A stretch of DNA of 64,000 bases. Source: Hansschlegelia beijingensis (GTDB lineage Bacteria > Pseudomonadota > Alphaproteobacteria > Rhizobiales > Methylopilaceae). The notes beneath the pieces were generated by a model. The model did no database searches. It was not told where the DNA came from and saw only the letters and a list, made by a program, of their open reading frames with translations. The stretch lies in NCBI RefSeq assembly GCF_014196425.1, contig NZ_JACIDR010000003.1, positions 310,001 to 374,000 of the forward strand, read 5' to 3'. This document shows, in pieces, positions 3,620 through 29,949 of this stretch (the first letter of the stretch is position 1; every line of letters begins with the position of its first letter). The translations under genes and the position numbers were made by a program.

Positions 3620-4378
3620 ATGACACTGTTCAGGGCCAACGTCGGCTCCGACGCTTCGTCAGCGAAGATCGCGATGCACGAGACCACCTTACGCGGCAAC
3701 CATGCCTACGACCTTCTGCGTCGCGAGATCGTGTCGTGCCGCATCATGCCGGGCGCGCGCTTCACCGAGCACGAGATGATGGAGCGCCTGCAGGTCGGAA
3801 AGGCGAGCCTTCGGATCGCCCTTCAGCGGCTCACCGAGGGCGGACTGGTGACGTCGATGCCGCGCCACGGCTACCGGGTGGCGCAGGTCACCGTGAAGGA
3901 CGTGGACGAAGTGTTCGCGCTCCGCATGGTGCTGGAGCCGCTGGCGGCCCGGCTCGCCTCCGGACGGGTGAACCGAGCCCAGCTTGAGCGTCTGGAGAAT
4001 GCGTGCCGCGGCAAGCTTCCGGGCGACGTCGGCAACCAGATCGACTTCTTCCTCGAGGCCAACCGGTCCTTCCACATGGCGATCGCCATGTCGTCGGGCA
4101 ACGACCGCCTCTGCCGCGCGCTCTCCGGCCTGCTGGACGAGATGACCCGCCTCGTGGCCCTCGGCTTCGGCGTGCAGCGCGTACGGCCCAACATCGAGAA
4201 CGATCACACGCTGATGATCAGACATCTTGTGGCGGGAGACGCCGACGCGGCCGAGGAGGTCGCGCGGCGGCACGTCGAAACGTTCCGCGATATGGTCATG
4301 GAGAAGGTCGTCGCGAGCCTCAAGGAGGCCGCCGCGATCGTTCCGGTCGGCGCTCCCGCCGTTGGTTGGAAAGGCTGA
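3620..4378 (+). CDS. GntR family transcriptional regulator (FCD/FadR subfamily)
   Basis: 252 residues. Residues about 27-90 form a GntR winged helix (AYDLLRREIVSCRIMPGARFTEHEMMERLQVGKASLRIALQRLTEGGLV). The C-terminal half is an all-helical FCD domain (EVFALRMVLEPLAARLA ... NRSFHMAIAMSSGN ... HLVAGDADAA), where acidic metabolites usually bind with a metal. ATG 3620 follows ggggacctt; an in-frame ATG at 3674 is an alternative and would remove 18 poorly conserved residues. The stop is 5 bases before the ABC ATPase, so the regulator probably heads and controls the importer/catabolic operon. The ligand is not predictable. Confidence 0.92.
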   Translation: MTLFRANVGSDASSAKIAMHETTLRGNHAYDLLRREIVSCRIMPGARFTEHEMMERLQVGKASLRIALQRLTEGGLVTSMPRHGYRVAQVTVKDVDEVFALRMVLEPLAARLASGRVNRAQLERLENACRGKLPGDVGNQIDFFLEANRSFHMAIAMSSGNDRLCRALSGLLDEMTRLVALGFGVQRVRPNIENDHTLMIRHLVAGDADAAEEVARRHVETFRDMVMEKVVASLKEAAAIVPVGAPAVGWKG

Positions 4379-4383
4379 TCCGG

Positions 4384-5130
4384 ATGGCCTCCGTCAAGGT
4401 TCAGTGCGTCAGCAAGTGGTTCGAGCGCAGGGACGGCGAGAGCCTTCACGTCCTGCAGAACATCGATCTTGAGGCCCCCGAAAAGACGATCACGGCGATC
4501 GTGGGCGCTTCGGGCTGCGGCAAGTCCACGCTTCTCAACATCGTGGCGGGCCTCATCGAGCCCGATCGCGGCTGCCTGTTCCTGAACGGGGTCAAGGCGA
4601 GCGAGTTCAAGGACTGGCGCTCGATGACCTACATGTTCCAGGAGGATCGCCTGCTCCCCTGGCGCACCGCCGCCCAGAACGTCGCCTTCGGTCTCGAGGC
4701 CGCCGGCGTCGGACGGGCCGAGCGGAAGGAGCGCGTCGCCGAGACGCTCGAGCTCGTGGGGCTCTCGCAGTTCGCCGACGTTTTCCCGCACGAGCTTTCG
4801 GGCGGCATGCGCAGCCGCGTGGCGCTCGCCCGCAGCCTGGTGACCCGTCCCACTCTTCTGCTGATGGACGAGCCGTTCTCGAAGCTCGATCCCACCATCC
4901 GCGAACAGATGCACGCCGAGGTGCTGCGGATCGCCGAGCTGATGTCGATGACGATCCTGTTCGTCACCCACGACGTCGAGGAGGCTGTCGTGCTCGCGAG
5001 CAGGGTGGTGGTGCTGAACCCGCGTCCGGGCCGCGTCCGCGAGACCCGCACGATCGATCTTCCTTATCCCCGCGACCGCACCTCCGCGGAGGTCCAACAG
5101 GAGGCGCGCTCCCTGCGCGAGAGCCTTTGA
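4384..5130 (+). CDS. ABC transporter ATP-binding protein, SsuB/TauB type
   Basis: 248 residues. Walker A GASGCGKST (41-49), Q-loop FQEDRLLPW (85-93), signature LSGGM (138-142), Walker B LLLMDEP (158-164) and the switch-His segment FVTHDVEEA are all present. The pattern matches ATPases of nitrate/sulfonate/taurine (SsuB, TauB) importers. The ATG at 4384 is chosen because it starts a family-like N-terminus just after the GntR stop; the frame is open much further upstream, but that part overlaps the GntR gene and is not family-like. It partners the next two genes as a complete importer. The substrate is unknown; it could be a sulfonate, amidine or small heterocycle. Confidence 0.93.
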   Translation: MASVKVQCVSKWFERRDGESLHVLQNIDLEAPEKTITAIVGASGCGKSTLLNIVAGLIEPDRGCLFLNGVKASEFKDWRSMTYMFQEDRLLPWRTAAQNVAFGLEAAGVGRAERKERVAETLELVGLSQFADVFPHELSGGMRSRVALARSLVTRPTLLLMDEPFSKLDPTIREQMHAEVLRIAELMSMTILFVTHDVEEAVVLASRVVVLNPRPGRVRETRTIDLPYPRDRTSAEVQQEARSLRESL

Positions 5131-5132
5131 GC

Positions 5133-5978
5133 ATGCCGGTGCCCGCCGCGACGCCCCTTGTTGAAAAACGGCCGACTGACGGCCCCAAGACCAGCCACAC
5201 CCAGGGCTCGCGTGAGAAGCGGCTCCGCCTCCTCTCCATGCGCGTCCTCCTGCTCCTGCTGCTGCTGGTCATCTGGCAGGTCGCCTCGCTCGGGACGGCG
5301 CCGTTCGTGCTGCCGAGCCCCGGGCGGGTGTTCGACGCCTGGTGGAGCCTCGTGGTCACCGCCGGTTTCTGGCGGGACTTCGGCATCACGTTCTGGCGCG
5401 TGCTGATGGGCTTCGCGCTCGCCGCCGCGATCGGCGTTCCGCTGGGCGTCCTGCTCGGCGCGAACGAGAAGCTCGGCGAGTTCTTCGACCCTGTGCTCAC
5501 CGTCGTGAACACCGTGTCGTCGAGCATCTGGGCGATCTTCGCGCTGATCTGGTTCGGGCTGTCCGACTGGACCACGATCTTCGTGGTCTTCATGACGGCG
5601 ATGCCGCTGATCCTGACCAATGTCTGGCAGGGCACCCGCACCGTGAACGCCGACTTCGTCGAACTGGCGCAGACCTTCCGCATGTCGCGCCTGCAGGTGA
5701 TGCTCAAGATCTACCTGCCGACGATCCTGCCGCCGTTCTTCGCGGGCGCGCGTCTCGCGTTCGGGTTCGGCGCTCGCGTCAGCCTGGTGGCGGAGACCCT
5801 CGGCGCCTCGAGCGGCATCGGCTATCGGCTGCGCCAGGCGGCCGACCTCGTCCAGACCGATCAGGTGTTCGCATGGACCCTGACGCTGGTCGCGCTGATG
5901 ATCGCGATCGAGTCCCTCGTCCTCAAGCCGCTCGAAAGCCGCCTCTTCGCCTGGAAGAAGAAGGCTGGCGGCCAGTGA
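5133..5978 (+). CDS. ABC transporter permease, SsuC/TauC type
   Basis: 281 residues from ATG 5133 (a TTG at 5127 overlapping the previous stop would add two). An inner-membrane protein with about six hydrophobic segments. It carries the binding-protein-dependent transport signature, with the EAA-loop equivalent FVELAQTFRMSRLQVMLKIY followed by LPTILPPFFAGARLAFG and the typical WRVLMGFALAAAIGVPLGVLLG near residues 90-110. These features are shared with SsuC and TauC. It follows the ATPase by 2 bases and precedes the solute-binding protein, completing an importer under the GntR gene. Confidence 0.93.
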   Translation: MPVPAATPLVEKRPTDGPKTSHTQGSREKRLRLLSMRVLLLLLLLVIWQVASLGTAPFVLPSPGRVFDAWWSLVVTAGFWRDFGITFWRVLMGFALAAAIGVPLGVLLGANEKLGEFFDPVLTVVNTVSSSIWAIFALIWFGLSDWTTIFVVFMTAMPLILTNVWQGTRTVNADFVELAQTFRMSRLQVMLKIYLPTILPPFFAGARLAFGFGARVSLVAETLGASSGIGYRLRQAADLVQTDQVFAWTLTLVALMIAIESLVLKPLESRLFAWKKKAGGQ

Positions 5979-6021: not shown

Positions 6022-7002
6022 GTGAAGCGCATTGCAGTGTTCGCCGCCGCCTTCGCGGCCATTCTCGGGGCGGCCGCCCCGGCCCACGCCGAGAAAGTCC
6101 GCATCGGCTACTGGAGCTCGGGCGTCAGCCTCGGCTTCGGCGCGGTGCTCGAAAGCGGCAAGTTCATGGAGGCCGAGGGCCTCGAGGTCGAATACGTCAA
6201 GTTCCCGGACGTGAACGCGCCGACCAAGGCGATGGCGGCCGGCGCGATCGACTTCGCGATCGGCGCTCCGGCGGCGGCCTCCATGAGCGTGGCGGCCGAC
6301 GGCCTGCCGATGTCGATCATGCTGGCGACGCAGATCGCCGAGCTCGACTTCGTGGTGCCGGAGGACAGCCCCATCAAGACGATGGAGGACCTGAAGGGCA
6401 AGAAGATCGGCGGTTCGCCGGCCGGCAGCGCGACGGCCGCGATCATGTCCGCGATCCTCGAGAAGAACTATGGCTTCAAGCCGGGCGACTTCACGCAGGT
6501 GCCCGGCAACGACCCGCGCCTCGCGCAGTTCCTCGTCCAGAAGGACATCGACGCCGCCTCGCTGCGCTCGGTCACGATCGCGCTCATCAAGGACGTGAAG
6601 CTGCGGAAGATCGGCTCGTTCCGCGACGAGTGGAAGAAGCTCTCGAAGGCCGAAGCCGCGCCCGTGCTCGGCGTGGGCCTGGTGCGCAACGAGTGGCTGA
6701 AGGCCAATCCGGAGGCGGCCGCCAAGATCGTCGCCGGCATGCGCAAGGCCTACGAGTTCGGCAAGGCCGACAAGGCGGCCGTCGCCAAGGCGCTCGTCCA
6801 GGCCGCCAACATGAAGGAAGACGACGCCAAGGCCTACGCGGCCCTCTGGGACGGCATCTACTCCGTCTCGATGGAGCCCGCCGATCTGGCGTCTCTGAAA
6901 ACCGAGTTCGAGGTGTTCAAGTCCGTCGGCGCCGTGAAAGGCGAACTGCCGGACGCGGCCCTCGTGACTGCGCCCTACGAGGCGTCCAAGGCCATCAAGT
7001 GA
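6022..7002 (+). CDS. ABC transporter substrate-binding protein (SsuA/TauA/NMT1-like)
   Basis: 326 residues from GTG 6022, preceded by ttggagcagcag. A classic Sec signal peptide (MKRIAVFAAAFAAILGAAAPAHA, cleavage after AHA) directs it to the periplasm. The mature part reads as an NMT1/SsuA-like binding protein: RIGYWSSGVSLGFGAVLESG, the phrase AMAAGAIDFAIGAPAAA, then SPIKTMEDLKGKKIGGSPAGSATAA, which are the usual ligand-cleft landmarks. It is co-directional with, and 43 bases after, the permease. The ligand is unknown; proteins of this class bind sulfonates, taurine, nitrate or pyrimidine precursors. Confidence 0.9.
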   Translation: MKRIAVFAAAFAAILGAAAPAHAEKVRIGYWSSGVSLGFGAVLESGKFMEAEGLEVEYVKFPDVNAPTKAMAAGAIDFAIGAPAAASMSVAADGLPMSIMLATQIAELDFVVPEDSPIKTMEDLKGKKIGGSPAGSATAAIMSAILEKNYGFKPGDFTQVPGNDPRLAQFLVQKDIDAASLRSVTIALIKDVKLRKIGSFRDEWKKLSKAEAAPVLGVGLVRNEWLKANPEAAAKIVAGMRKAYEFGKADKAAVAKALVQAANMKEDDAKAYAALWDGIYSVSMEPADLASLKTEFEVFKSVGAVKGELPDAALVTAPYEASKAIK

Positions 7003-7064
7003 CGGCCGCCCGCACCTAGCCCCAACGACAAGCGCGCAAGCGCCGCAAAAGAGAAAGCATCGAA

Positions 7065-8081
7065 ATGACTGCGACCATGAAGGCTTTGCTGCTGAAGCAG
7101 CACGGCGACGTCACGGATTTGACCGTCGTGGACGACTATCCGGTCCCGACGGCGGACGCCGGCCATGTTGTGATCCGCGTCGGAGCCTCCTCGTTCAACT
7201 ATCACGACGTGTTCACCGTGAAGGGCATGCCGGGCATCAAGGTGCCGCTGCCGGTGATCATCGGCCTCGACATGGCCGGCGAGATCACCGAGCTCGGCGA
7301 GGGCGTCACGGGCTGGAAGGTCGGCGACCGCGTGCTCGTCAACCCGCTCTATCCCGGCAAGGGCCTGATGGGCGAAATGCTCGACGGCGGCATGGCGCAG
7401 TACTGCAAGGTCTCGGTCGGCCAGCTGATCCGCATGCCCGACAAGGTCAGCTTCGTGGACGCGGCCTCGCTCCCCGTCGCCTACGGCACCGCGCACCGCA
7501 TGCTGGTCACGCACAAGACGGTGAAGGCCGGCGACAAGGTGCTGATCCTCGGCGCCTCGGGCGGCGTCGGAACGGGCTGCGTGATGCTCGCCAAGCAGCT
7601 CGGCTGCGAGGTCATCGCCTGCGCCGGCAGCCAGGACAAGATGGACCGGCTGAAGGAACTCGGCGCCGATCACGTGGTGAACTACCGCGAGACCGACTTC
7701 TCCAAATGGGCGATCGAGAAGTACGGCAAGCCGCAGCGTCGCACTTATGAGGGCGGCGTCGACGTCGTCATCAACTTCACCGGCGGCGACACCTGGGCGC
7801 CCTCGCTGAAATGCGTGAAGCGCGGCGGCTCGATCCTGGTCTGCGGCGCCACCGCCGGCCACGATCCCAAGGAAGACCTGCGCTACATCTGGAGCTTCGA
7901 GCTCAAGGTCATCGGCTCCAACTCCTTCTACGATGACGACCTCGCCGCGCTCATGGACATGATCCAGGAGGGCACGCTGAAGCCGGTGGTCGACAAGGAG
8001 CTCAGCCTCGAAGAGGCGGCCGAAGGCCTCCGGATGATCCGTGACCGCGAGGTCATGGGCAAGATCGTGGTGACGCCGTGA
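7065..8081 (+). CDS. Quinone oxidoreductase-like dehydrogenase (MDR superfamily)
   Basis: 338 residues. A GroES-like N-terminal half (VIIGLDMAGEITELGEGVTGWKVGDRV) is followed by a Rossmann domain with the nucleotide-binding GASGGVG at 163-169. The four-cysteine structural zinc lobe of classical alcohol dehydrogenases is absent, so it resembles the NADPH-dependent quinone/enoyl reductase branch. The stop overlaps the GTG start of the thioesterase by 4 bases, so it is translationally coupled into the catabolic operon. It probably reduces or oxidises a carbonyl or conjugated intermediate; the substrate is unknown. Confidence 0.88.
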   Translation: MTATMKALLLKQHGDVTDLTVVDDYPVPTADAGHVVIRVGASSFNYHDVFTVKGMPGIKVPLPVIIGLDMAGEITELGEGVTGWKVGDRVLVNPLYPGKGLMGEMLDGGMAQYCKVSVGQLIRMPDKVSFVDAASLPVAYGTAHRMLVTHKTVKAGDKVLILGASGGVGTGCVMLAKQLGCEVIACAGSQDKMDRLKELGADHVVNYRETDFSKWAIEKYGKPQRRTYEGGVDVVINFTGGDTWAPSLKCVKRGGSILVCGATAGHDPKEDLRYIWSFELKVIGSNSFYDDDLAALMDMIQEGTLKPVVDKELSLEEAAEGLRMIRDREVMGKIVVTP

Positions 8082-8500
8082 GCGAGGCCCCCGTGCTGAC
8101 CGCCGCCGAGGTCGAGGAGAAGCTGCTGCGTGGGCCGTTCCACCAGTGGCTCGGGCTCAAGGTCGTCTCCGTCGGAGACGGCGAGATCGAGCTCAAGGCG
8201 ACGTGGCGGCCCGAATGGGTCGTCAACGCCGAGCGCGGCTACGTCCATGGCGGCATCCTGGCGACGCTCGTTGATCTGACCGCCGACTGGGCGCTCGTCT
8301 CGAAGACCGGCCGCGGCGTGCCTACGGTCGACCTGCGGGTCGATTATCATCGCGCCGCCATGCAGGGCGACCTGACGGCGAAGGGCAAGTTGGTGAAGTT
8401 CGGCGGCACGCTTTCCGTCGCCGAGGCACAGATCCTCGACCAGGACGGACGCCTGCTCGCCAGCGGTCGCGGCGTCTACATGACGGCGCCCGCCAAGTGA
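8078..8500 (+). CDS. PaaI family thioesterase (hotdog fold)
   Basis: 140 residues from GTG 8078, overlapping the previous stop (GTGA). Hotdog-fold landmarks: FHQWLGLKVVSVGDGEIELK, then NAERGYVHGGILATLVDLTADWA, where the HGG plus a downstream acidic residue form the PaaI-type active site, and TVDLRVDYHRAAMQGDLTAKG. Such enzymes hydrolyse aryl- or acyl-CoA thioesters. An acyl-CoA synthetase gene lies two genes downstream, so the pair may activate and release (or proof-read) the pathway's carboxylic acid. Confidence 0.9.
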   Translation: MSEAPVLTAAEVEEKLLRGPFHQWLGLKVVSVGDGEIELKATWRPEWVVNAERGYVHGGILATLVDLTADWALVSKTGRGVPTVDLRVDYHRAAMQGDLTAKGKLVKFGGTLSVAEAQILDQDGRLLASGRGVYMTAPAK

Positions 8501-9282
8501 CCACGACGCTCGATCATGTCGTGGTCAATGCGCTGCGCGGCATGGACGCGGCGGCAGAAACCTTCGCGGCGCTCGGCTTCACGCTGACGCCGCTCGGCCG
8601 CCACTCGCTTGGCTCCATCAATCACCTGATGATGGCGCCGGGCGACTATCTCGAGCTTGTCGCGGTGCCGGAGACCGGCAAGCAGCGCCAGGAGGTGCTG
8701 GACAGCCCGTTCGGGCTCAGCGGCCTCGTGTTCAAGACCGACGACGCCGACGCCGCCTACCAGCGGCTGTCGGCGGCGGGCTTGTCTCCGACGGAGCCGG
8801 TCGCGTTCTCGCGGCCGGTCGAAATCGACGGGGAGGCGCGCGACGCGCGCTTCCGCACCGTGCGGGTGGCGGCGGAGCTGTTCCCCGCCGGCCGCGTCTA
8901 TTTCTGCCAGCACCTCACGCCGGAGCTTGTCTGGCGTGAGGAGTGGCTCGAGCACCCCAACGGCTTCGCGGGCTTCGACCGCATCGAGGTCGCGTCGCCC
9001 GAGCCGGAGACCGCCGCCTCGCTCTACGCCGCGGCGGCCGACAGCGCGGTCGAGGCCGGGGATGGCCTCTGGCGCGTGTCGGTGGACGACTTCCACATCG
9101 ACGTCGTTTCCGCCGAACGACCCCGCTTCACGAAGCTCGGCCTGACGTTCCGAGGGCTCGGCCGCCTGGAGCAGGCCGCGACGGGGCTGACGGGGGTGAC
9201 ATGGCGACGGACCGCGGCGGACGCCGCGCGCCTCGACATCGCGTCGCTCGAGCTCAGCCTCGAATGCCGGAGCATCGCATGA
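8497..9282 (+). CDS. VOC family protein (glyoxalase-like domain)
   Basis: 261 residues from GTG 8497, again overlapping the upstream stop as GTGA. It begins LDHVVVNALRGMDAAAETFAALGFTLTPLGRH, the typical start of the glyoxalase-like (PF13468-type) VOC proteins, with His in the first strand as a potential metal ligand and PGDYLELVAV supplying the Glu. A second, weaker repeat spans about residues 150-255. VOC enzymes act as metal-dependent isomerases, lyases or dioxygenases, so it could be a catalytic step here. No more specific call is possible. Confidence 0.83.
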   Translation: MTTTLDHVVVNALRGMDAAAETFAALGFTLTPLGRHSLGSINHLMMAPGDYLELVAVPETGKQRQEVLDSPFGLSGLVFKTDDADAAYQRLSAAGLSPTEPVAFSRPVEIDGEARDARFRTVRVAAELFPAGRVYFCQHLTPELVWREEWLEHPNGFAGFDRIEVASPEPETAASLYAAAADSAVEAGDGLWRVSVDDFHIDVVSAERPRFTKLGLTFRGLGRLEQAATGLTGVTWRRTAADAARLDIASLELSLECRSIA

Positions 9283-10763
9283 TCACCGCTTCCAATCTCG
9301 GCGACATCCTCAGCCCGAGCGTCGATCCCGAGAAGATCGCGATCATCGGGGTCGACGCCGGGCAGTCCGAGACGATCCTGACCTATGGCGGGCTCGCGGC
9401 GCGCGCCCACGCCTTCGCGCGCGGCCTCGTCCGGCGCGGCCTGAAGCGCGGCGACCGGGTCGCGATCGTGGCGGCGAACCGGCCCGACTACATCGCTCTG
9501 ATGCTCGGCGCGATGCAGGCGGGGATCGTGCCGGCGCCGGTCAACTTCAAGTTCCCCAAGGCGACCATCGAGCATGTGATCTCCGACAGCGGCGCGCGCG
9601 CCGTGTTCTGCGACCCGGCGCGGCGCGACCAGGTCGCGGACGGGGTCGAGGCGATCGACTTCGACGGCCCTGGGATCGCCGAATGGCTGGACGCCGGGGC
9701 GTTCACGCCGGTGGTCCCGGAGGAGCGCGAGCCTGCGCTCACCCTCTACACCTCCGGCTCGACCGGCCGGCCCAAGGGCGTGCTGCTCAGCCACGCCGCG
9801 CATCTGTGGGTCGTCAGGACGCGCATGGCCGACAACGACCTGTCTGACGACCGGGTGCTGATCGCGGCGCCGCTCTACCACATGAACGCGCTCGCCAACG
9901 CGCTGCTGGCGCTTGCGAGCGGCGCCACGGTGGTGCTGCTGCCGCAGTTTCAGGCGCGCTCCTTCATCGGCGCGATCGCGCGCCACCGCTGCACCTGGGC
10001 GACCGCGGTGCCGCCGATGATCGCGATGATGCTGCGCGAGAAGGAGGCGCTGGCGGACGCCGACCTCTCCAGCGTCCGCGTCGTCCGGATGGGCTCCGCG
10101 CCGGTCAACGACACGCTGAGCGGCCAGATCCGCGAGCTGCTGCCGAACGCCCGCATCATCAACGCCTACGGCACCACGGAAGGCGGCCCGGTGGTGTTCT
10201 TCAGCACGGGCGACGAGCCGACCGGCTCGGTCGGCAAGCCTCATCCGGGCGTCGAGCTGCGGCTGGTCGGCGAGGAGGCGCCCGACAAGGGCGTGCTCCA
10301 GATGAAGAGCCCGGCCATCATGCTCGGCTATCACAACCGGCCGGACGTCCGTTCGCCGATCACCGACGACGGCTTCTACGACACCGGGGACGTGTTCCGC
10401 CGCGACGAGGACGGCTTCTACTACTTCGTCGGCCGCACAGACGACATGTTCGTCTCCGGCGGCGAGAACATCTTCCCCGGCGAGGTCGAGGCGGTGCTGG
10501 AGACGCACCCGGAGGTGCTGCAGGCGAGCGTCGTGCCGGTCGACGACGACATCAAGGGGCAGAAGCCGGTCGCCTTCATCGTCCGGAAGCCCGGATCGAC
10601 CGTCGACGAGCAGGCCATCAAGGCCTTCGCGCTCGAGAACGCTCCGGCGTACCAGCACCCGCGCCGGGTCTGGTTCCTGGACCAGATGCTGCTCGCCTCG
10701 ACCAACAAGATCGACCGGGCGGCGCTGCGGGCGCGCGCCGAGGCGGAACTGAAAGCTTCCTGA
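9279..10763 (+). CDS. AMP-forming acyl-CoA synthetase (AMP-binding enzyme)
   Basis: 494 residues from ATG 9279 (ATGA overlap with the VOC gene). The frame is open further upstream, but that sequence overlaps the VOC gene and is not family-like. The adenylation P-loop YTSGSTGRPKG is at residues 157-167; the later core motifs YGTTEGGP, YDTGD, GRTDDMFVSGGENIFPGEVE and the C-terminal catalytic Lys in STNKIDR are intact. It activates a carboxylate to its acyl-AMP and CoA thioester. Tight coupling with the thioesterase, dehydrogenase and PLP enzyme implies an acid intermediate in the same pathway. The acid's identity is unknown. Confidence 0.92.
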   Translation: MITASNLGDILSPSVDPEKIAIIGVDAGQSETILTYGGLAARAHAFARGLVRRGLKRGDRVAIVAANRPDYIALMLGAMQAGIVPAPVNFKFPKATIEHVISDSGARAVFCDPARRDQVADGVEAIDFDGPGIAEWLDAGAFTPVVPEEREPALTLYTSGSTGRPKGVLLSHAAHLWVVRTRMADNDLSDDRVLIAAPLYHMNALANALLALASGATVVLLPQFQARSFIGAIARHRCTWATAVPPMIAMMLREKEALADADLSSVRVVRMGSAPVNDTLSGQIRELLPNARIINAYGTTEGGPVVFFSTGDEPTGSVGKPHPGVELRLVGEEAPDKGVLQMKSPAIMLGYHNRPDVRSPITDDGFYDTGDVFRRDEDGFYYFVGRTDDMFVSGGENIFPGEVEAVLETHPEVLQASVVPVDDDIKGQKPVAFIVRKPGSTVDEQAIKAFALENAPAYQHPRRVWFLDQMLLASTNKIDRAALRARAEAELKAS

Positions 10764-11861
10764 ATGCTTGCGCTGAAAGAGAGAGAAGGACGGTCGGCGA
10801 CCGCCGATGCCGATCGGCGCGCCTGGGTGTCCCGGGCGATCTTCAAGATCGAGGCCGACGTCAACCGCTCGGCCGACACGCATCTCATCCGCGTCGAGCT
10901 CCCCCGCACGCCGGGCATCGCGCTCTACGTGAAGGACGAGTCGAGCCACCCGACCGGGAGCCTCAAGCACCGGCTCGCGCGCTCGCTGTTCCTCTACGCG
11001 CTGTGCAACGGCTGGATCGGGCCGGACACCACCATCGTGGAGTCCTCGAGCGGCTCCACCGCGATCTCCGAGGCCTATTTCGCGAAGCTGCTCGGGCTGC
11101 GGTTCATGGCCGTGATGCCGCGCCGGACGGCGCGCGAGAAGATCGCCGCGATCGAGTTCCACGGCGGTCAGGCGCATCTCGTCGACCATCCCGACGTCTC
11201 CGGCGAGGCCGAGCGGCTGGCCGCGGAGATCGGCGGCCACTTCATGGATCAGTTCACCTACGCCGAGCGGGCGACCGACTGGCGCGGCAACAACAACATC
11301 GCCGAGTCGATGTTCGCCCAGCTTGAGCTCGAAGCCCGCCCGACCCCGGACTGGGTGGTGTGCGGCGCGGGCACCGGCGGCACGTCGGCCACGATCGGCC
11401 GCTACATCCGCTACCGGAAGTTCGAAACCTCGCTGTGCGTCGCCGATCCGGAGTGTTCGGTGTTCCACCGGCACTACGCCGAGCGCTCGGTTCGCCGGGT
11501 GGACCGGTGCGAGAGCGTGATCGAGGGGATCGGCCGCGCCAGGGTCGAGCCGTCCTTCGTGCCCGAACTGGTCGACCGCATGATCGCCGTGCCGGACGCC
11601 GCCTCGATCGCCGCCGCGCGGGTGGCGAGCTCGCTGCTCGGGCGTTCCTGCGGCGGTTCGACCGGAACCAACATCTGGGCCTGCATGCAGCTCATCGAGG
11701 AGATGAAGGCGGCGGGCCGGGAGGGCGCGATCGTGACGCTGCTCTGTGACAGCGGCGAGCGCTACCGCTCGACGATTTTCAACGACGCCTGGCTTGTCGA
11801 GCGCGGGTTCGATCTGGCAGGTCCGCTGGCGCGGCTCGACGCCGTGTTCGGCGGGGCGTGA
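10764..11861 (+). CDS. PLP-dependent cysteine synthase-fold enzyme (fold type II), Cds1-like
   Basis: 365 residues, starting with the ATG directly after the synthetase stop. A type-II PLP enzyme: Lys68 in [10 protein letters not shown] is the Schiff-base Lys, [11 protein letters not shown] binds the substrate carboxylate, and [15 protein letters not shown] binds the PLP phosphate. Length and phrases fit the long PLP-dependent cysteine synthase family that includes the mycobacterial cysteine desulfhydrase Cds1, rather than CysK or CysM (about 310-325 residues). Beta-elimination from cysteine or a cysteine conjugate would yield aminoacrylate, which fits the RidA gene two genes downstream. Synthase activity is the alternative. 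Confidence 0.86.
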
Positions 11862-11872
11862 GGAGGGATTCG

Positions 11873-13498
11873 ATGACGCAGAGCTTCGACTGGACGGCCG
11901 GTTACCCCTCGCGCCGCATGCCCGTGTTCGGGCGCAACGTCGTCTCGACCTCGCACCCGCTGGGCGCGCAGGCGGGCCTGCAGACGATCTGGCGCGGCGG
12001 CAACGCGGTCGACGCGGCGATCGCCTCCGCCGCCGTCATGGCGCTGGTCGAGCCGTGCTCGAACGGCCTCGGCTCCGACGCCTATTGCATCCTGTGGGAC
12101 GGCGAGAAGCTGCACGGTCTCAACGGCTCGGGCGGCTCGCCCGCCACGTGGACGCCGGACTATTTCGCGCGCAAGTACGGCGAGGGCCAGGCGCGCCCGC
12201 CGATGCGCGGTTGGGACAGCGTGACGGTTCCGGGCGCGGTCGGCGCCTGGGTGGCGCTGCATGACCGCTTCGGCAAGCTGCCCTTCGCGGACGTGCTCGC
12301 GCCTGCGATCGAGCTCGCCGAGCGCGGCTATCTCTGCCCGACCGTCGTCCAGGGCAAATGGGCGGCGGCCGCCGCCGTGCCGGAGATCACCCGCCAGCCG
12401 GGCTTCGCCGAGATGTTCCTGCCGCGCGGCCGCGCGCCGGAGGTCGGCGAGCTGGTGACGCTGCCGGGCGCGGCCCGCATGCTGCGCGCCATCGCCGAGA
12501 CGAACGGCGCGGCGCTCTATGGCGGCGAGATCGCCGAGGCCATGGAGGCGCATTCCCGCGCCAATGGCGGCTCCATGACGGCGAAGGACCTCGCGGGCTT
12601 CAAGGCGCAGTGGGTCGAGCCGATCGAGAAGAACTACCGCGGCTACACGGTCCACGAGATCCCGCCGAACGGGCAGGGGATCGCGGCGCTGATCGCGCTC
12701 GGCATCCTCGAGAACTTCGACCTGAAGGGGCTGAGCGCCGACGGCGTCGACGCCACGCATCTCCAGATCGAGGCCATGAAGCTCGCCTTCGCCGACACCT
12801 ATGCGCATGTGGCGGATCTCGAGCATATGCGGGTGACGCCCGCCCAGTTGCTCGACGATTCCTACCTGGCCGAGGCCGCCAGGCTGATCGACCCGAGCCG
12901 CGCCCAGGCGTTCGCGGCGCGGAACCCGGTCCGGGGCGGCACCATCTATCTCACCGCCGCCGATGAGAACGGCATGATGGTGAGCTTCATCCAGTCGAAC
13001 TTCATGGGCTTCGGCTCGGGCGTCTGCCTGCCGGAATGGGGGCTCTCGCTGCAGAACCGCGGCCACGGCTTCCACCTCGACGCGGCGAGCCCGAACGTCG
13101 TCGCGCCCGGCAAACGGCCGTTCCAGACGATCATTCCGGGCTTCCTGACCAGGGATGGCCAGCCGGTGATGAGCTTCGGCGTCATGGGCGGCAACATGCA
13201 GCCGCAGGGTCACCTGCAGACGCTGGTGCGGATGATCGACTTCGACCAGAACCCGCAGGCGGCCTGCGACGCGCCGCGCTGGCGCTTCAACGCCGGCCTC
13301 GACATCAACGTCGAGGCGAACATGGCGGGCGAGACCGTCGACGGGCTGGTCGGCCGCGGCCACGAGATCAGCGTGATCAACGACAGCTACCAGGATTTCG
13401 GCGCCGGCCAGTTCATCTGGCGGATGGGCGATCCGTCGGTCGAGGGCTACGTCGCCGCGAGCGACCCGCGCCGCGACGGCTACGCGGCCGTCGGCTGA
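11873..13498 (+). CDS. Gamma-glutamyltransferase family protein, no signal peptide
   Basis: 541 residues from ATG 11873, preceded by gaggaggga; a GTG at 11858 overlaps the upstream stop. The Ntn-hydrolase GGT fold is clear: GGNAVDAAIASAAVMALVEP near the N-terminus, the PGAVGAWVALHDRFGKLP segment, and the autoprocessing site GGTIYLTAADENG, where Thr357 aligns with the catalytic Thr that starts the small subunit in E. coli GGT. No export signal is visible, so the enzyme should be cytoplasmic, unlike canonical periplasmic GGT. It may cleave a gamma-glutamyl or other amide bond in an imported compound. Confidence 0.88.
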   Translation: MTQSFDWTAGYPSRRMPVFGRNVVSTSHPLGAQAGLQTIWRGGNAVDAAIASAAVMALVEPCSNGLGSDAYCILWDGEKLHGLNGSGGSPATWTPDYFARKYGEGQARPPMRGWDSVTVPGAVGAWVALHDRFGKLPFADVLAPAIELAERGYLCPTVVQGKWAAAAAVPEITRQPGFAEMFLPRGRAPEVGELVTLPGAARMLRAIAETNGAALYGGEIAEAMEAHSRANGGSMTAKDLAGFKAQWVEPIEKNYRGYTVHEIPPNGQGIAALIALGILENFDLKGLSADGVDATHLQIEAMKLAFADTYAHVADLEHMRVTPAQLLDDSYLAEAARLIDPSRAQAFAARNPVRGGTIYLTAADENGMMVSFIQSNFMGFGSGVCLPEWGLSLQNRGHGFHLDAASPNVVAPGKRPFQTIIPGFLTRDGQPVMSFGVMGGNMQPQGHLQTLVRMIDFDQNPQAACDAPRWRFNAGLDINVEANMAGETVDGLVGRGHEISVINDSYQDFGAGQFIWRMGDPSVEGYVAASDPRRDGYAAVG

Positions 13499-13534
13499 AC
13501 CCTTTCACAAGCACAAACACGAGGAGAACGGCTG

Positions 13535-14002
13535 ATGGCCGGAGAAGTCGAAGCGCGGCTCAGCGAGCTTGGAATCACGCTGCCGGAGCCGGTCGCGGCG
13601 GCGGCGAACTACGTTCCGGCGGTCCGCTCCGGGAACATGCTCTATATCTCGGGCCAGCTCCCGATCGGCCCGGGCGGCGTCACGCTGACCGGCACGCTCG
13701 GCGCCGGCGTCTCGGTCGAGGACGCCCAGAAGGCGGCCCAGCTCTGCGCCATCAACGTGATGGCGCAGGCCCGCGCGGCGCTCGGCGACCTCGACAAGGT
13801 GGCGCGCGTCGTGAAGCTGGTCGGCTTCGTCGCCTCGACGCCCGATTTCGGCGACCAGCCGAAGGTCGTCAACGGCGCCTCGGACCTGATGGTCGCGGCG
13901 TTCGGCGAGAAGGGCCGCCACGCCCGTTCGGCGGTCGGCGTCGCGGCGCTGCCCTTCGGCGCGGCGGTCGAGGTCGAAGCGATCATCGAGATCGCGTCGT
14001 AA
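13535..14002 (+). CDS. RidA family protein (reactive enamine/imine deaminase)
   Basis: 155 residues, ATG 13535 after gaggagaacggctg. The longer RidA-like subgroup that starts VEARLSELGITLPEP, followed by AANYVPAVRSGNMLYISGQLP, VKLVGFVASTPDF and RHARSAVGVAALPFGAAVEVEAIIEI. The Arg before SAVGV and the Glu in VEVE correspond to the catalytic pair of RidA, unlike the partial Rid gene at the window start. RidA hydrolyses aminoacrylate-type enamines. As last gene of the operon behind a PLP enzyme, it plausibly clears such intermediates. Confidence 0.9.
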   Translation: MAGEVEARLSELGITLPEPVAAAANYVPAVRSGNMLYISGQLPIGPGGVTLTGTLGAGVSVEDAQKAAQLCAINVMAQARAALGDLDKVARVVKLVGFVASTPDFGDQPKVVNGASDLMVAAFGEKGRHARSAVGVAALPFGAAVEVEAIIEIAS

Positions 14003-14012
14003 CACGCAAGTT

Positions 14013-14047
14013 CCTCCCGCTGAGGCGGCGCGCGCCTCAGCGGGAGG
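14013..14047. terminator. 14-bp perfect hairpin between convergent operons
   Basis: A perfect 14-base stem (14013-14026 with 14034-14047) and a 7-base loop lie midway between the ends of ridA and the convergent flavin reductase gene. No T-run follows on either strand, so it may act as a bidirectional mRNA end-protecting hairpin or a weak terminator. Confidence 0.6.
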
Positions 14048-14066: not shown

Positions 14067-14579
14067 CTAGAGCGCCTTCAGGCCGTGGAAGCCGGCTTCG
14101 AAATAGGCGAGCGGCGCTGCGTCGCCTGCGCTCGCGGCCACCACGCGGCCGATGAAGATCGCGTGGCTTCCCACTTCGTGTCGGTCCTCGACCAGACATT
14201 CGAGATGCGCCGCGCAGCCTTCCAGCAGCGGGCAGTCCCGCACGCCGGGCCGGTGCGGCGCGGCGTCGAAGCTTTTGGGCTCCGATCCGGCGAAATAGCT
14301 CGCGACCTCCTGCTGCGATTCCGAGAGGAAGTTGAGCGCGAAGGCGCCGCCGCGGCGGATCAGGCCATAGGACTGGCTGCTCCGGTTGACGACGATCAGC
14401 ACCGTCGGCGGATCGGCGGTGACGCTCGCGACCGCGGTCGCCGTCATGCCGTTCGCCACGCCCCCGCTGCTGCTGGTGACCACGACCACGCCGGCGGCGT
14501 GCCGGCGCATCGTGGCCCGGAACGCGGCGGCGGAGACGCCCGCGGGGGCGGCTCCGTTGAGCGCGGCGGCGCCGCTCAC
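14067..14579 (-). CDS. Flavin reductase-like protein (FMN-binding split barrel)
   Basis: 170 residues from GTG 14579, overlapping the monooxygenase stop (GTGA). Signature of the HpaC/NtaB-type flavin reductases: FRATMRRHAAGVVVVTSSSGGVANGMTATAVASVTADPPTVLIVVNRSSQSYGLI and later FALNFLSESQQEVASYFAG. It supplies FMNH2 for two-component flavin monooxygenases; translational coupling to the NtaA-type gene just upstream makes that its partner. It could also serve the luciferase-like enzyme at 300-1316. It is the last gene of the minus-strand operon. Confidence 0.9.
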   Translation of the reverse strand: MSGAAALNGAAPAGVSAAAFRATMRRHAAGVVVVTSSSGGVANGMTATAVASVTADPPTVLIVVNRSSQSYGLIRRGGAFALNFLSESQQEVASYFAGSEPKSFDAAPHRPGVRDCPLLEGCAAHLECLVEDRHEVGSHAIFIGRVVAASAGDAAPLAYFEAGFHGLKAL

Positions 14580-15904
14580 GGCCGCCCCGCGCCGTTCAGA
14601 CGGTCGCGCAGCGAGCCGGCGCCGTAGCTGCTCCTCAGCCGGCCGCGCTTCTGCAGGATCGGCGTGACCCTGTCGACGAAGTCGTCGAAGGTGTCGGGCA
14701 GGAAGGCCGGCGAGATCACAAAGCCGTCGGCCGCGCCGCTGTCGACGATCGAGATCAGCTCCTCGGCGACGTCCTCGGCCGTGCCGGTGACGCGCGGGCA
14801 CATCACGCCGCGGCCGTAGATGCGGCCCGCCTCCGCGATCGTGGTCGAGCCGTCGCCCGCGATGGAGCGCAGCGCCGCGAGGTTGCCCTGGCTGCCGGTG
14901 TCGGCGATCTCGTTGACGGTCGCCTCGAGCGGCAGCGACGAGAAGTCGGCGTTGGCGTGCGCGGCGAGCGTCGAGAGCCCGACGCGGGGATCAACAAGGC
15001 TGTCATGCAGGTCGCGCTTGTCCTCGGCCTCGGCGCGGCTGTCGCCAATGAACGGCATCACGGCCATCATCACCTTGGCGGCGTCCGGCGCGCGGCCTTC
15101 CTTCTCGAGCGCGGCCGCGACGTCGGCCTTGAAGACGCCCATCCGGGTGAGGTTCGGCTGCAGGGCGAAGATCACCTCCGACCAGCGCGCCGCGAAGGCC
15201 TTGCCGCGGCCCGAGGAGCCGGCCTGGATGATCAGCGGCCGCCCCTGCGGGCTGCGCGGGATGTTGAGCGGCCCGCGCGACTGGAACCAGCGGCCCTTGT
15301 GGTTGGCGTAACGCACCTTGGCGGGGTCGGCGTAGATCCCGGCGGCGCGGTCGAGCACCAGCGCGTCGGGCTCCCAGCTGTCCCAGAGCTTGAAGGCGAG
15401 CTCCATGAACTCGTCGGCCCGGTCGTAGCGCTCGTCATGGCTGAGGTGCTGCGCGACGCCGAAATTGAGCGCCTCGCCGTCGTTCATCGAGGTCACGACG
15501 TTCCAGGCCGCCCGGCCGCCCGAGATGTGGTCGAGCGTCGCGAACTCGCGAGCGAGATTGTAGGGCGCGTCATAGGTCGTGGACCGCGTCGCCCCGAGGC
15601 CGAGATGTGAGGTCACGGCCGCCATCGCGCCGAGGATCGGCACCGGGTCCATCCGGGTGGCGTCCTGGTCGCCATGGCGGATGCCGATCTCGTGGCTGTC
15701 GCCGTAGCGGTCCGCGATGGCGAGCCGGTCGGCGAAGAACACGAAGTCGAACATGCCGCGCTCGAGCGTCCGGGCGATGCCGGCATAGTGCCCGAGCGTC
15801 AGGAACGGCGTCTCATGCGCCGGGTTGCGCCAGATCGCGTGGCTGTGCACCACGGGACCGGCGACGAGGAAACCACACAGGTGGATCTGCTTGTCCTGGC
15901 TCAT
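14576..15904 (-). CDS. NtaA/SnaA/DszA-type FMN-dependent monooxygenase
   Basis: 442 residues. ATG 15904 is chosen because it is preceded by ggaggaaaag and starts the family-typical QIHLCGFLVAGPVVHSHAIWRNP; the frame is open further upstream, but that part is not family-like. Characteristic phrases: TLERGMFDFVFFADRLAI, DHISGGRAAWNVVTSMNDGEALNFG, RYDRADEFMELAFKLWDSWE and PLIIQAGSSGRGKAFAARWSEVIFA. Known members oxidise nitrilotriacetate, EDTA, pristinamycin, dibenzothiophene sulfone or riboflavin, using FMNH2. The reductase gene next to it completes a two-component system. The substrate is probably the ligand of the Liv-type importer. Confidence 0.92.
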   Translation of the reverse strand: MSQDKQIHLCGFLVAGPVVHSHAIWRNPAHETPFLTLGHYAGIARTLERGMFDFVFFADRLAIADRYGDSHEIGIRHGDQDATRMDPVPILGAMAAVTSHLGLGATRSTTYDAPYNLAREFATLDHISGGRAAWNVVTSMNDGEALNFGVAQHLSHDERYDRADEFMELAFKLWDSWEPDALVLDRAAGIYADPAKVRYANHKGRWFQSRGPLNIPRSPQGRPLIIQAGSSGRGKAFAARWSEVIFALQPNLTRMGVFKADVAAALEKEGRAPDAAKVMMAVMPFIGDSRAEAEDKRDLHDSLVDPRVGLSTLAAHANADFSSLPLEATVNEIADTGSQGNLAALRSIAGDGSTTIAEAGRIYGRGVMCPRVTGTAEDVAEELISIVDSGAADGFVISPAFLPDTFDDFVDRVTPILQKRGRLRSSYGAGSLRDRLNGAGRP

Positions 15905-16002
15905 CTTTTCCTCCGTGGCCGTCAGGCGCACGGCTCCCTTGCGCGCGGTCTCCACGGCCGCGCGTCGTTGTTGTTCGGCAGTTCTACTCGGACGCTGGTG
16001 CG

Positions 16003-17229
16003 TCAGCTCACCACGGCGAACGGGGTGTTCTTCCCGTCCTTGATGAGCTGGACGTAGAAGGACCTGTTCAGCGAGTCGCCCTTCTCGTCGAAGTCGCAGG
16101 TGCAGCCGGCGCCGTTGAAGTTGATCTTCTTTCCGTCGCGGATCATCTTCAGGGCTTCGACCACGTCGTCGACGAATTCTCCCGGAGGGTTGCAGACTTC
16201 GCGGACCGACTTGGTCCACACCGCCGCTTCCTGGGTCTTGGCGTGCTCCATCGCGAGCGCCGTGATGCAGATCTGGTCCCAGGCGTTGCCGGCGAACAGG
16301 AACACGGTGCCCTCGGGAGCGCCCATCTCCTTCACGAACCTGGCGTAGGAGGCGCTCTCGATCGGCGGGGCCGGCTGCAGGTGATAGATGCCCTCGGCGA
16401 CCTCCGGTCCGACCGCCTGAAGGAACTTGCCCTCGGCGTCCGCGCCGGTGCCGAGCGAGACCACCTTGGAGGTGAAGCCGCCGCGATAGATCTCCTTCGA
16501 GATCGAGACCATGTCGGTGAGCAGCGGCAGCACGAACACGGCGTCCGGCTCCGGCCCGAAGGCCTTCTCGACTTCGGCGCGGTAGGAGGCCTGGTCGGGG
16601 TTGTACATCACGACGTCGATCACCTCGCCGCCGATCCTGGCCATCTCGGCCTTGAACGGCTCCACCATGGCGACGATGAAGGGGTTCTGCTGCGCCAGCA
16701 CGGTGACCTTCCTGGCGCCGATCTTCTCCATCACCTTGGCGCCGGCCGGGCCCCACTGGCTGCTCTTGGCCTGCAGCCGGTAGATCAGCCCCTTGGTGTC
16801 GCCCTCCGTCACGGCGTTCGCCGCGCAGGACAGCATCTGCACCTTGTTGGCCGCGAGGATGATGGGCTTGGCGGCGAGCGCCTCGGGGCTGCCCCAGAAG
16901 CCGCCGACCAGCTCGACCTTGTTGACCTCGAGCAGCTTCTTGCTGGCGGTGACGCTGGTGGTCGCGCTGGTCTCGGAATCCTCGATGAACAGCTTGAGCT
17001 TGCGGCCGCCCAGGATGCCGCCGGAGTCGTTCACCTTGGAGACGACGAGGTCGGCCGCCTGCTTCATCGCCGGGCCATAGGCGCCGGTCGCGCCGGAGAA
17101 CGGCAGCACCATGCCGATCGGCACGTCGGCGGCCTGCGCGATGGCGGGCGTCCGCAGCGCCGCGGCGAGCGGCAGCGCGCCGAGGCCGGCGACGACGGAG
17201 CGGCGGGTCATGGACAGGGCGTCGGTCAT
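16003..17229 (-). CDS. Branched-chain amino-acid-type ABC transporter substrate-binding protein
   Basis: 408 residues. A Tat-like leader (MTRRSVVAGLGALPLAAAL ... AIAQA) precedes a type-I periplasmic binding protein: VPIGMVLPFSGATGAYGPAMKQAADL, NDSGGILGGRKLKLFIEDSETS, then the GFWGSPEALAAKPI switch. This is the Leu/Ile/Val or amide/urea binding-protein fold. It lies upstream of the monooxygenase and downstream of the CMD and Liv genes on the same strand, so it should feed LivHMGF. Given the company, the ligand is likelier to be an organic acid, amide or amine than leucine. Confidence 0.9.
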   Translation of the reverse strand: MTDALSMTRRSVVAGLGALPLAAALRTPAIAQAADVPIGMVLPFSGATGAYGPAMKQAADLVVSKVNDSGGILGGRKLKLFIEDSETSATTSVTASKKLLEVNKVELVGGFWGSPEALAAKPIILAANKVQMLSCAANAVTEGDTKGLIYRLQAKSSQWGPAGAKVMEKIGARKVTVLAQQNPFIVAMVEPFKAEMARIGGEVIDVVMYNPDQASYRAEVEKAFGPEPDAVFVLPLLTDMVSISKEIYRGGFTSKVVSLGTGADAEGKFLQAVGPEVAEGIYHLQPAPPIESASYARFVKEMGAPEGTVFLFAGNAWDQICITALAMEHAKTQEAAVWTKSVREVCNPPGEFVDDVVEALKMIRDGKKINFNGAGCTCDFDEKGDSLNRSFYVQLIKDGKNTPFAVVS

Positions 17230-27100: not shown

Positions 27101-28279
27101 TCAGCCGACCGCGCCGTAGCGGGCCAGCCCGGCGTCGAGATCGGCGACCAGGTCCTCGACGTCCTCGAGGCCGATGTGGAGCCGGACCGTCGGACCCTGC
27201 GGCGCCCATTTGCTGGCCGTGCGCATCGGGCGCGCGTCGAACGGGATGGCGAGGCTCTCGAAGCCGCCCCACGAATAGCCGAGCCCGAACAGCTCGAGCT
27301 CGTCCAGGAAGGCCGCCAGCGCGGCCTCCGAACCGGGCTCGAGCTCGATCGCGAACAGGCCCGAGGCGCCGGTGAAGTCGCGCTTCCACAGCGCGTGGCC
27401 CGGATCGCTCTCCAGCCCCGGGTGCATGACCCGCGCCACCTCCGGCCGCGACTGCAGCCAGCGCGCGACGCGCAAGCCCGCCGCCTGGTGGTGCGCCAGC
27501 CGCACGCCGAGCGTCCTCAGGCCGCGCAAGGCCAGGAACATGTCGTCGGGGCCGCAGCACAGGCCGAGCGCGCCATGCGTGGTGCGAAGCGCCGCGGCGT
27601 GGGCGGCGTTGGCCGAAACCCAGCCCATCATCAGGTCGGCGTGGCCGCCGAGATATTTGGTGCCGGCCGAGACCGCGAGATCGACGCCGTGATCGTGCGC
27701 CTTGAAGAACAGCGGCGTCGCCCAGGTGTTGTCCATGATCACCGCCGCGCCGCGCGCGTGCGCCGCGCCGGCGATCGCCGGAACGTCCTGCACCTCGAAG
27801 GTCAGCGAGCCGGGGCTCTCGACGAACACCGCCTTGGTGTTGGGGCGCATCAGGTCCGAGACGTGAGCCCCGACCGAGGCGTCGTAATAGCTGGTCTCGA
27901 CGCCCATGCGGCGCAGCATGCCGTCGCAGAACCGGCGGGTCGGCTCGTACACGGTGTCGACCATCAGCAGATGGTCGCCGCTCTTCAGCGCCGTCATCAG
28001 CGCGAGCGACACGGCGCTGACGCCGGACGGCGCGAGCGCGACGTGCTGGCCGCCCTCGAGCTGCTTGAGCGCGTCGCTCAGCGCCTCCGAGGTCGGCGTG
28101 CCGCGCCGGCCGTAGGTGTAGCGGCCGCGCGCAGCCTTGAAGTCCGCGACCGTGGACCAGAGCACCGTGGAGCCGTGCACCACCGGCGGGTTCACGAAGC
28201 CGAACTGCTCGTCGGAGCTTCGGCCGCCGAGCACCAGCTCGGTCATGGGCCCGTACCTGCGATCACCGAAACGGGCCAT
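27101..28279 (-). CDS. metC: Cystathionine beta-lyase
   Basis: 392 residues from ATG 28279 (ggaaag upstream); an inner ATG at 28246 is the alternative. Cys/Met-metabolism PLP enzyme of fold type I: YGRRGTPTSEALSDALKQLEGG binds cofactor from the neighbouring subunit, VFVESPGSLTFEVQDV and DNTWATPLFFKAHDHGVDLAVSAGTKYLGGHAD include the PLP Lys in SAGTKYLGGH. SWGGFESL near the C-terminus is the typical beta-lyase substrate motif. It converts cystathionine to homocysteine. It lies downstream of the thi operon but separate from it (83-base gap). Confidence 0.92.
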   Translation of the reverse strand: MARFGDRRYGPMTELVLGGRSSDEQFGFVNPPVVHGSTVLWSTVADFKAARGRYTYGRRGTPTSEALSDALKQLEGGQHVALAPSGVSAVSLALMTALKSGDHLLMVDTVYEPTRRFCDGMLRRMGVETSYYDASVGAHVSDLMRPNTKAVFVESPGSLTFEVQDVPAIAGAAHARGAAVIMDNTWATPLFFKAHDHGVDLAVSAGTKYLGGHADLMMGWVSANAAHAAALRTTHGALGLCCGPDDMFLALRGLRTLGVRLAHHQAAGLRVARWLQSRPEVARVMHPGLESDPGHALWKRDFTGASGLFAIELEPGSEAALAAFLDELELFGLGYSWGGFESLAIPFDARPMRTASKWAPQGPTVRLHIGLEDVEDLVADLDAGLARYGAVG

Positions 28280-28362
28280 GCGTGAACTTTCCAGGTGCTG
28301 CCGATGATGCGGCGCCGCGAAGCTCCTCCATTTGCGATCACGCGCGAGAAACTGCAAGCCGG

Positions 28363-29750: not shown

Positions 29751-29751
29751 G

Positions 29752-29949
29752 TCAGCCTCCTTGCCGCGGCGCGACGATCTCGATGCGGTCGCCTTCGGAC
29801 AGCGACCGGGCGGCCCGGCTCGCCGCAGGCACGAAGGCGCCGTTCACGGCCGTCGCCACGACGGCGTCGCCGTAGTCGAGCGCGGCGAGCGCGCCCGCAA
29901 GGGTCTCGGCCTCCACCTCAAGCGGTGAGCCGTTCACGATCAGCTTCAT
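29752..29949 (-). CDS. thiS: Sulfur carrier protein ThiS
   Basis: 65 residues: [24 protein letters not shown] and a C-terminus EIVAPRQGG with the diglycine that carries the thiocarboxylate. Its first 32 bases lie inside the 3' end of thiO in another frame, so translation is probably coupled. It feeds sulfur to ThiG; the adenylating ThiF is not in this window. Confidence 0.95.

Follow-up and report, generated by a model that had tools for sequence, protein, structure and literature searches.

Genes and extent of the operon

The 64,000-nucleotide window analysed here comes from the 3.66 Mb genome of Hansschlegelia beijingensis, a soil bacterium of methylotroph type (contig NZ_JACIDR010000003.1, positions 310,001 to 374,000), and on its forward strand, between positions 3620 and 14002, it carries eleven co-directional genes that appear to form a catabolic operon with its own ATP-binding cassette (ABC) importer. 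The first encodes a GntR/FCD-family regulator (3620-4378; PF07729 and PF00392) and is followed by the importer's ATPase (4384-5130; ABC_tran), its permease (5127-5978; BPD_transp_1, PF00528), whose gene overlaps that of the ATPase by 4 bases, and an NMT1/SsuA-like binding protein (6022-7002; NMT1, PF09084). Then come a reductase of the medium-chain dehydrogenase/reductase (MDR) family (7065-8081; ADH_zinc_N, PF00107, with PF08240), a PaaI-type hotdog thioesterase (8078-8500; 4HBT, PF03061), a two-module vicinal oxygen chelate (VOC) protein (8497-9282; Glyoxalase_3, PF13468) and an AMP-forming acyl-CoA ligase (9279-10763; AMP-binding, PF00501, with PF13193). The last three genes encode a putative Cds1-like L-cysteine desulfhydrase of pyridoxal phosphate (PLP) fold type II (10764-11861; PALP), a predicted N-terminal nucleophile (Ntn) amidase with the gamma-glutamyltransferase (GGT) fold (11858-13498; G_glu_transpept, PF01019, 475 bits) and a Rid-family protein (13535-14002; YjgF_endoribonc and Ribonuc_L-PSP, PF14588 and PF01042); all of these families score above their Pfam cut-offs. 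The parts belong to known enzyme families, and it is the combination for which we found no description: the literature searched, in which few subscription journals were covered, holds no pathway with this gene set or with its core block.

From the regulator to the Rid gene the intergenic gaps are 5, -4, 43, 62, -4, -4, -4, 0, -4 and 36 bases, which bears out the first-pass annotation in its claim that the genes it named, all of them present, overlap or nearly abut from 7065 to 14002: this stretch is one tight unit, and the GntR gene and importer upstream of it are co-directional with small gaps. That annotation had rightly put the regulator and importer in front, but it had opened the unit at 6022, which is too late because it cuts the importer; the ATPase and permease genes are part of the unit, and the true start is the GntR gene at 3620. 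The genes listed in its title are correct, but the list lacked three that lie within the most widely conserved part of the operon, those for the MDR reductase, PaaI thioesterase and VOC protein. That the gene order is beyond chance follows from the recurrence of the GntR-to-GGT block in other genomes.

A core block and its attachments

The ordered block GntR-ABC (ATPase, permease, binding protein)-MDR-PaaI-VOC-ligase is found in 10 of the 13 genomes of the genus that we examined (the window genome, G111, G235, G142, G170, G034, G076, G677, G193 and G678), with the regulator keeping its position in all ten. G252 has a more distant version, with the VOC gene on the opposite strand and without GGT or Cds1, and the remaining two, G679 and G215, gave no MDR match. 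A GGT gene lies downstream of the ligase in every block-bearing genome and a Cds1 gene between the two in seven of them (not in G034, G076 or G193), while RidA follows GGT in the window genome and G678 only (77% identical) and is absent from seven of the nine genomes in which it can be counted, nine because in G076 only some 200 bases of contig remain after GGT. The first-pass idea that exactly this gene set is one system is therefore supported only in part. Home-made gene calls were used for reading the neighbourhoods of fetched loci, and gene content there is taken from tblastn and hidden Markov model matches because self-trained calling gave antisense frames in several high-GC loci. In G678 (L205, 5788-16429; completeness 88%) the MDR, ATPase and GGT matches are in pieces, as by frameshifts.

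The block with Cds1 and GGT and without RidA is also present in L041, a metagenome-assembled genome from the Rhizobiales, and the full order from GntR to ligase, without GGT or Cds1, occurs on an M. radiotolerans plasmid, on a Caballeronia plasmid and in a genome of another class (G880). The MDR-PaaI-VOC-ligase part stands at a contig start in G871, and MDR, ligase, PaaI and VOC genes, or a subset of them, are found in varied order and with varied transporters in other Alphaproteobacteria and on plasmids of Sodalis, Tistrella and Paenibacillus; at thresholds of 1e-105 and 1e-100, MDR matches were found in 24 of 385 genomes of the class and 8 of 398 of the phylum. Gene content is therefore layered, with no one fixed set: as read from these sequences, the constancy of the attachments falls from GGT to Cds1 to RidA, and the core extends well beyond the genus.

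Approached from the attachments, the picture is one of GGT and Cds1 genes that mostly lie elsewhere. Of the best 80 GGT loci, several on short contigs, two have the block (L035 and L041), and it is present at 5 of the 30 Cds1 loci examined, which were taken from 32 matches at E 1e-60 or better in 31 of 297 genomes of the order. The other 25 Cds1 loci have neither a ligase nor a GGT gene of the operon kind within 1.5 kb, and the block is absent from the 17 of them that were read with wider flanks; a RidA homologue (34-35%) stands directly upstream of Cds1 in two of the 25 (L024, which is also L131, and L034), and by eye some of these Cds1 genes adjoin an Lrp-like regulator. The joint neighbourhood search suggested at first pass, which was to ask whether the genes are rarely together, finds this to be true of GGT and Cds1 across bacteria and not true inside the genus.

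Constraint inside the operon, to judge by sequence identity, is very uneven: at the genus loci L115, L116 and L117 the MDR and PaaI proteins are 93-96% identical to those of window 7065-8500, and the VOC protein of the same operon just 66-68%. Beside the block in M. radiotolerans and in G193 (L181 7418-9581 and L202 15383-17538) lies a pair of genes for a deacetylase-type amidohydrolase and an alpha/beta hydrolase, 82% and 57% identical, and in L181 a xanthine-dehydrogenase-family gene is annotated next to the pair.

In the window the RidA gene and the convergent flavin reductase gene are separated by a perfect inverted repeat of 15 bp with a spacer of 5 bases (14013-14047), which is probably the end of the transcription unit. 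Pattern scans gave no sigma-70-type promoter and no excess of terminator-like sites (five, against a mean of 4.5 in shuffles). On the reverse strand (14067-17229) the flavin reductase gene converges on the operon together with genes for a branched-chain-type binding protein and for what looks by eye to be a luciferase-type monooxygenase; another luciferase-like gene is at 300-1316, and reverse-strand open reading frames at 27101-30919 resemble, again by eye, cystathionine beta-lyase and thiamine-synthesis proteins.

Likely functions of the proteins

The importer shares with those of the SsuABC/TauABC type an ATPase, a permease and an NMT1/SsuA-like binding protein, but its scores fall short of the curated cut-offs: 96.6 against 163.5 bits for the SsuA family (TIGR01728), 113.4 against 347 for SsuC and 174.5 against 395 for the sulfonate ATPase. 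Among the models listed, it reaches no taurine, sulfonate or nitrate transporter cut-off, and for the ATPase no curated NCBIfam cut-off is reached among the best 25 of 187 models. The binding protein has weak PDB matches only; a structure model of it was poor (mean predicted local distance difference test score, pLDDT, of 50) and was not used.

For the MDR reductase the best PDB sequence matches are 2eih (an alcohol dehydrogenase), 5k1s and 4a0s (octenoyl-CoA reductase/carboxylase), and it scores 196 bits with TIGR02824 (quinone_pig3), whose cut-off is 296.8. The thioesterase belongs to the PaaI family by TIGR00369 (92 bits, cut-off 36.6) and scores 32.8 against the 118.9 of the phenylacetate equivalog PaaD. 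A profile search of the PDB gave no match for the VOC protein; its AlphaFold2 model (pLDDT 94.8) finds, among 50 matches listed, 3p8a (an S. aureus protein) as nearest and then 4-hydroxyphenylpyruvate dioxygenases (HPPDs), a likeness in the general two-module VOC fold only. The PDB sequences nearest to the ligase, 8weu and 8wev, are named fatty-acyl-CoA synthase and feruloyl-CoA synthetase.

The PLP enzyme scores 550 bits with NF052478, under the curated cut-off of 600, with 164 for the next-best model. When the eight operon copies are aligned with 25 other homologues (L010-L034) the family residues are conserved, and the sole near-invariant position never kept in the operon copies is 101, with a conservative Ile for Val. 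Cds1 of M. tuberculosis converts L-cysteine to sulfide and pyruvate (PMC8389258), and the window enzyme has both the sequence family and the conserved positions of this Rv3684-type desulfhydrase; it differs in sitting in a CoA-ligase operon, where Cds1 stands alone, and in its score below 600. The Rid protein retains the catalytic Arg and Glu in an alignment with E. coli RidA, RutC and YjgH, residues linked to imine hydrolysis in a source that also describes Rid genes clustering with PLP enzymes that produce 2-aminoacrylate (PMC4433059). In these residues, and in sharing a unit with a PLP enzyme, it is like the RidA/Rid1-Rid3 imine deaminases, but it exceeds E. coli RidA in length, has a match to PF14588 and scores 53.9 against the TIGR00004 cut-off of 106.25. 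These likenesses lend support to the first-pass pairing of a type II PLP enzyme, probably a beta-eliminating one, with a Rid protein in a single unit. The first-pass view of that unit as a catabolic one behind an importer is supported as well.

The GGT homologue scores 311.8 bits with TIGR00066, below the equivalog cut-off of 357.85, and by eye has no N-terminal signal segment. The nearest solved chain is 2nlz (E = 7e-150), with 5hft, which we take to be the oxamate amidohydrolase HpxW, at 7e-34. The positions of the catalytic Thr (T391) and the oxyanion Gly-Gly (G483, G484) are kept, whereas at the gamma-glutamate contacts R114, N411, Q430, D433, S462 and S463 of E. coli GGT the window protein has, in that order, S, F, R, G, Q and T. 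Four of the six (R114, D433, S462 and S463) are named as GGT residues in a source that reports no detectable activity for E. coli R114L, 82% of hydrolysis retained by D433N and activity raised in the S460A/S461A enzyme of B. licheniformis, and that treats extremophile GGTs carrying R-to-S and SS-to-HT changes as differing in catalysis rather than as inactive (PMC8062742). The loss of Arg114 and other gamma-glutamate contacts makes a gamma-glutamyl substrate less likely for the operon protein, and because some such single changes leave hydrolysis in known GGTs the verdict is put no more harshly than that. The gene at G000:C2:446835-448439, elsewhere in the genome, retains R114, D433, S462 and S463 and on this comparison is the better GGT candidate. 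With the 2nlz-type homologues, cytoplasmic Ntn amidases that seem to resemble B. subtilis YwrD, the window protein shares the catalytic Thr, the Gly-Gly and, as in extremophile GGTs, Ser at R114; it differs in having Gln at S462, where the aligned Variovorax and Paraburkholderia relatives have His, and in its operon context.

Candidate substrates

An organosulfur theme, raised at first pass, is strengthened by Cds1 in the operon and by genes of the cysteine dioxygenase (CDO) family beside a paralogous and several homologous modules. The paralogue lies in the window genome on contig C5 (L163 8127-14366), where MDR (77% identical), PaaI (67%) and ligase (58%) genes are followed by an aminotransferase gene and accompanied by a divergent GntR gene (38%) and a CDO-family gene (CDO_I, 40.1 bits, cut-off 23). 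A sodium:solute symporter gene adjoins the CDO_I gene there. In three genomes of family f155 (L167, L168 and L171), CDO_I is directly upstream of MDR-ligase in a clustering of called neighbours. Whole-genome counts cover 27 of the 40 genomes with MDR matches (31 MDR loci, 131.6 Mb), the ligase being seen beside the MDR gene in part of them; the other 13 are four of family f131, with no ligase at the MDR locus, and nine of the genus. The 27 genomes hold 10 CDO_I genes, four of them within 2 kb of an MDR gene, against an expectation of 0.05 within 10 kb (P about 2e-7; with two lineages counted, 0.001), and the further 13 add one, on another contig than MDR, so that 4 of 11 are near MDR in the 40 genomes. 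The match lists behind the counts are complete for CDO_I and DUF2817; those seen for GGT and M20 come from fetched loci, without G473, G644 and one G568 locus. By this measure the sulfur link of the module gains support from its CDO_I neighbours. In G390 (C9:45611-49902) some 2.3 kb separates a GGT-family gene from a CDO_I-family gene, the MDR gene of this genome being on a different contig.

It is tempting to see in the operon a system that imports and dismantles an acid, or an amide of it, linked to cysteine or bearing a thiol, a reading that we put first, but tentatively and well short of an even chance. The NMT1/SsuA-type ABC system would import the compound and the cytoplasmic GGT-fold amidase would cut its amide bond, probably not a gamma-glutamyl one. 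The AMP ligase would then activate the freed carboxylic acid, the MDR reductase may reduce a double bond of the CoA thioester, the VOC protein may isomerise or oxidise it, and the PaaI thioesterase would release the processed acid. The cysteine half would be split by the Cds1-like enzyme into sulfide, pyruvate and ammonia by way of 2-aminoacrylate, which the Rid protein would clear. Gene order, families and the reach of the core are read from the sequence itself; the substrate and these reactions are what we infer from them. A wider and somewhat less probable version would make MDR-PaaI-VOC-ligase an interchangeable block that handles, as CoA thioesters, the acids released from compounds linked to cysteine or bearing a thiol, and that is joined to different sulfur-removing heads: Cds1 and Rid (a sulfide route) in the window operon, a CDO-family enzyme and an aminotransferase (a sulfinate route) in the paralogue of the same genome, and a CDO-family enzyme in the distant family.

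Several observations weigh against a cysteine-linked or thiol-bearing acid. Cysteine cleavage would not be obligatory, since Cds1 is missing from 3 of the 10 block-bearing genomes of the genus. The CDO-bearing paralogue is confined to the window genome: the other 12 genomes of the genus have no second MDR match, and the 10 of them that were searched have no CDO_I. The CDO association was tested after a first sighting and is thus supportive, not independent, and the thiol need not be cysteine because thiol dioxygenases of the CDO_I class, which in one account takes in both cysteine and 3-mercaptopropionate dioxygenases, act on 3-mercaptopropionate too (PMC8050391). As for the amide bond, M20 acylases are not enriched near MDR loci (at least one seen, 1.4 expected) and GGT is not clearly so (at least three, the window's included, against 0.9; P 0.065). 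GGT relatives outside the block, read in five loci, keep other company: tripartite tricarboxylate transport (Tct) genes in L072 and L044 (both by eye) and on a Comamonas plasmid, and dipeptide (Dpp) ABC importers in L037 (by eye) and on a Paraburkholderia plasmid. UbiD decarboxylases adjoin the MDR-ligase module in two families (L178 5474-6868 and L213 5942-7534), a UbiD-like gene (33%) lies beyond the GntR gene near the block in the genus genome G677 (L201, near 15327), and gentisate/homogentisate-type genes adjoin the module, by eye, in other lineages; neighbours of these kinds indicate aromatic acids without sulfur.

We also considered, and rejected, the idea that an amide hydrolase (GGT, M20 or DUF2817) always accompanies the module. 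It had its first hint in the plasmid loci L181, L183, L184 and L185, which carry M20 genes, and in L203, but the queries of that scan came from the same loci and its controls were just 17 Cds1 and 10 GGT loci. The whole-genome count did not confirm it for M20 and did so only weakly for GGT. DUF2817 shows a modest excess near MDR loci: three genes, from two lineages, where 0.26 would be expected (P 0.0024; counted by lineage, 0.028).

As likely as the cysteine- or thiol-linked acid, and just as tentative, is that the core breaks down an aromatic or unsaturated carboxylic acid without sulfur, and that GGT, Cds1 and RidA are passengers which joined the unit to serve general nitrogen or cysteine metabolism. 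This would account for the core without those three genes on the two plasmids, of M. radiotolerans and of Caballeronia, and in G880, and for the UbiD genes that adjoin the module in two families and lie close to the block in G677. The enzymes offer further points in its favour: the ligase is near feruloyl-CoA synthetase and 4-coumarate-CoA ligase structures, octenoyl-CoA reductase is among the PDB matches of the MDR protein, ranked after alcohol dehydrogenase, and HPPD is the nearest named enzyme to the VOC fold among the matches listed. A GGT gene downstream of the ligase in all ten block-bearing genomes of the genus is harder to see as a passenger, and the CDO_I genes beside the module speak against an acid free of sulfur.

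It seems unlikely that the substrate is a thiol acid that is oxidised and CoA-activated much as in 3-mercaptopropionate breakdown, the CoA ester losing sulfite or sulfide and the MDR enzyme then reducing the enoyl-CoA so formed. The single class of cysteine and 3-mercaptopropionate dioxygenases mentioned above and the order CDO-MDR-ligase in L167, L168 and L171 would suit such a scheme, as would the catabolism of 3-mercaptopropionate and 3,3'-dithiodipropionate (DTDP) in Advenella mimigardefordensis, in which, as far as the source describes it, 3-sulfinopropionate becomes a CoA ester before desulfination (PMC5373536). Thiol chemistry and CoA activation of an acid are what that pathway and the CDO-bearing relatives of the module have in common, but Advenella relies on SucCD and a desulfinase of the acyl-CoA dehydrogenase family (PMC5373536), and the window operon has an AMP ligase, MDR and VOC proteins. 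Neither the thiol dioxygenase nor the acyl-CoA dehydrogenase-type desulfinase of the 3-mercaptopropionate/DTDP cluster is among the 11 operon genes, and the window operon has no CDO_I gene in its vicinity: the one such gene found in the genome is that on contig C5.

Still less likely is the first-pass proposal that a gamma-glutamyl compound or a cysteine S-conjugate is imported and broken down. Membership of the GGT family, the Cds1-like PLP enzyme with its Rid partner and the activity that altered GGTs can keep (D433N, S460A/S461A and the extremophile variants) all fit it, and it is weakened by the simultaneous alteration of five gamma-glutamate-contact positions (R114, N411, Q430, D433 and S462), by the inactivity of R114L and by the better GGT candidate elsewhere in the genome. 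Least likely of all is that the GGT homologue is a small-amide amidohydrolase like HpxW, which releases oxalate and ammonium from oxamate (PMC5270733), in a unit devoted mainly to nitrogen scavenging, for although it matches 5hft and shows no signal segment by eye, 2nlz is far closer and none of the 11 operon genes is of the purine or oxalurate kind.

Whichever acid it serves, the MDR-ligase-PaaI-VOC part is present in a Paenibacillus as well as in Alpha-, Beta- and Gammaproteobacteria. Should the link to sulfur prove true, the operon would represent a soil-bacterial route to carbon and sulfur from cysteine-linked acids, and one genome would hold two natural versions of it, by way of sulfide and of sulfinate, that could be compared directly.

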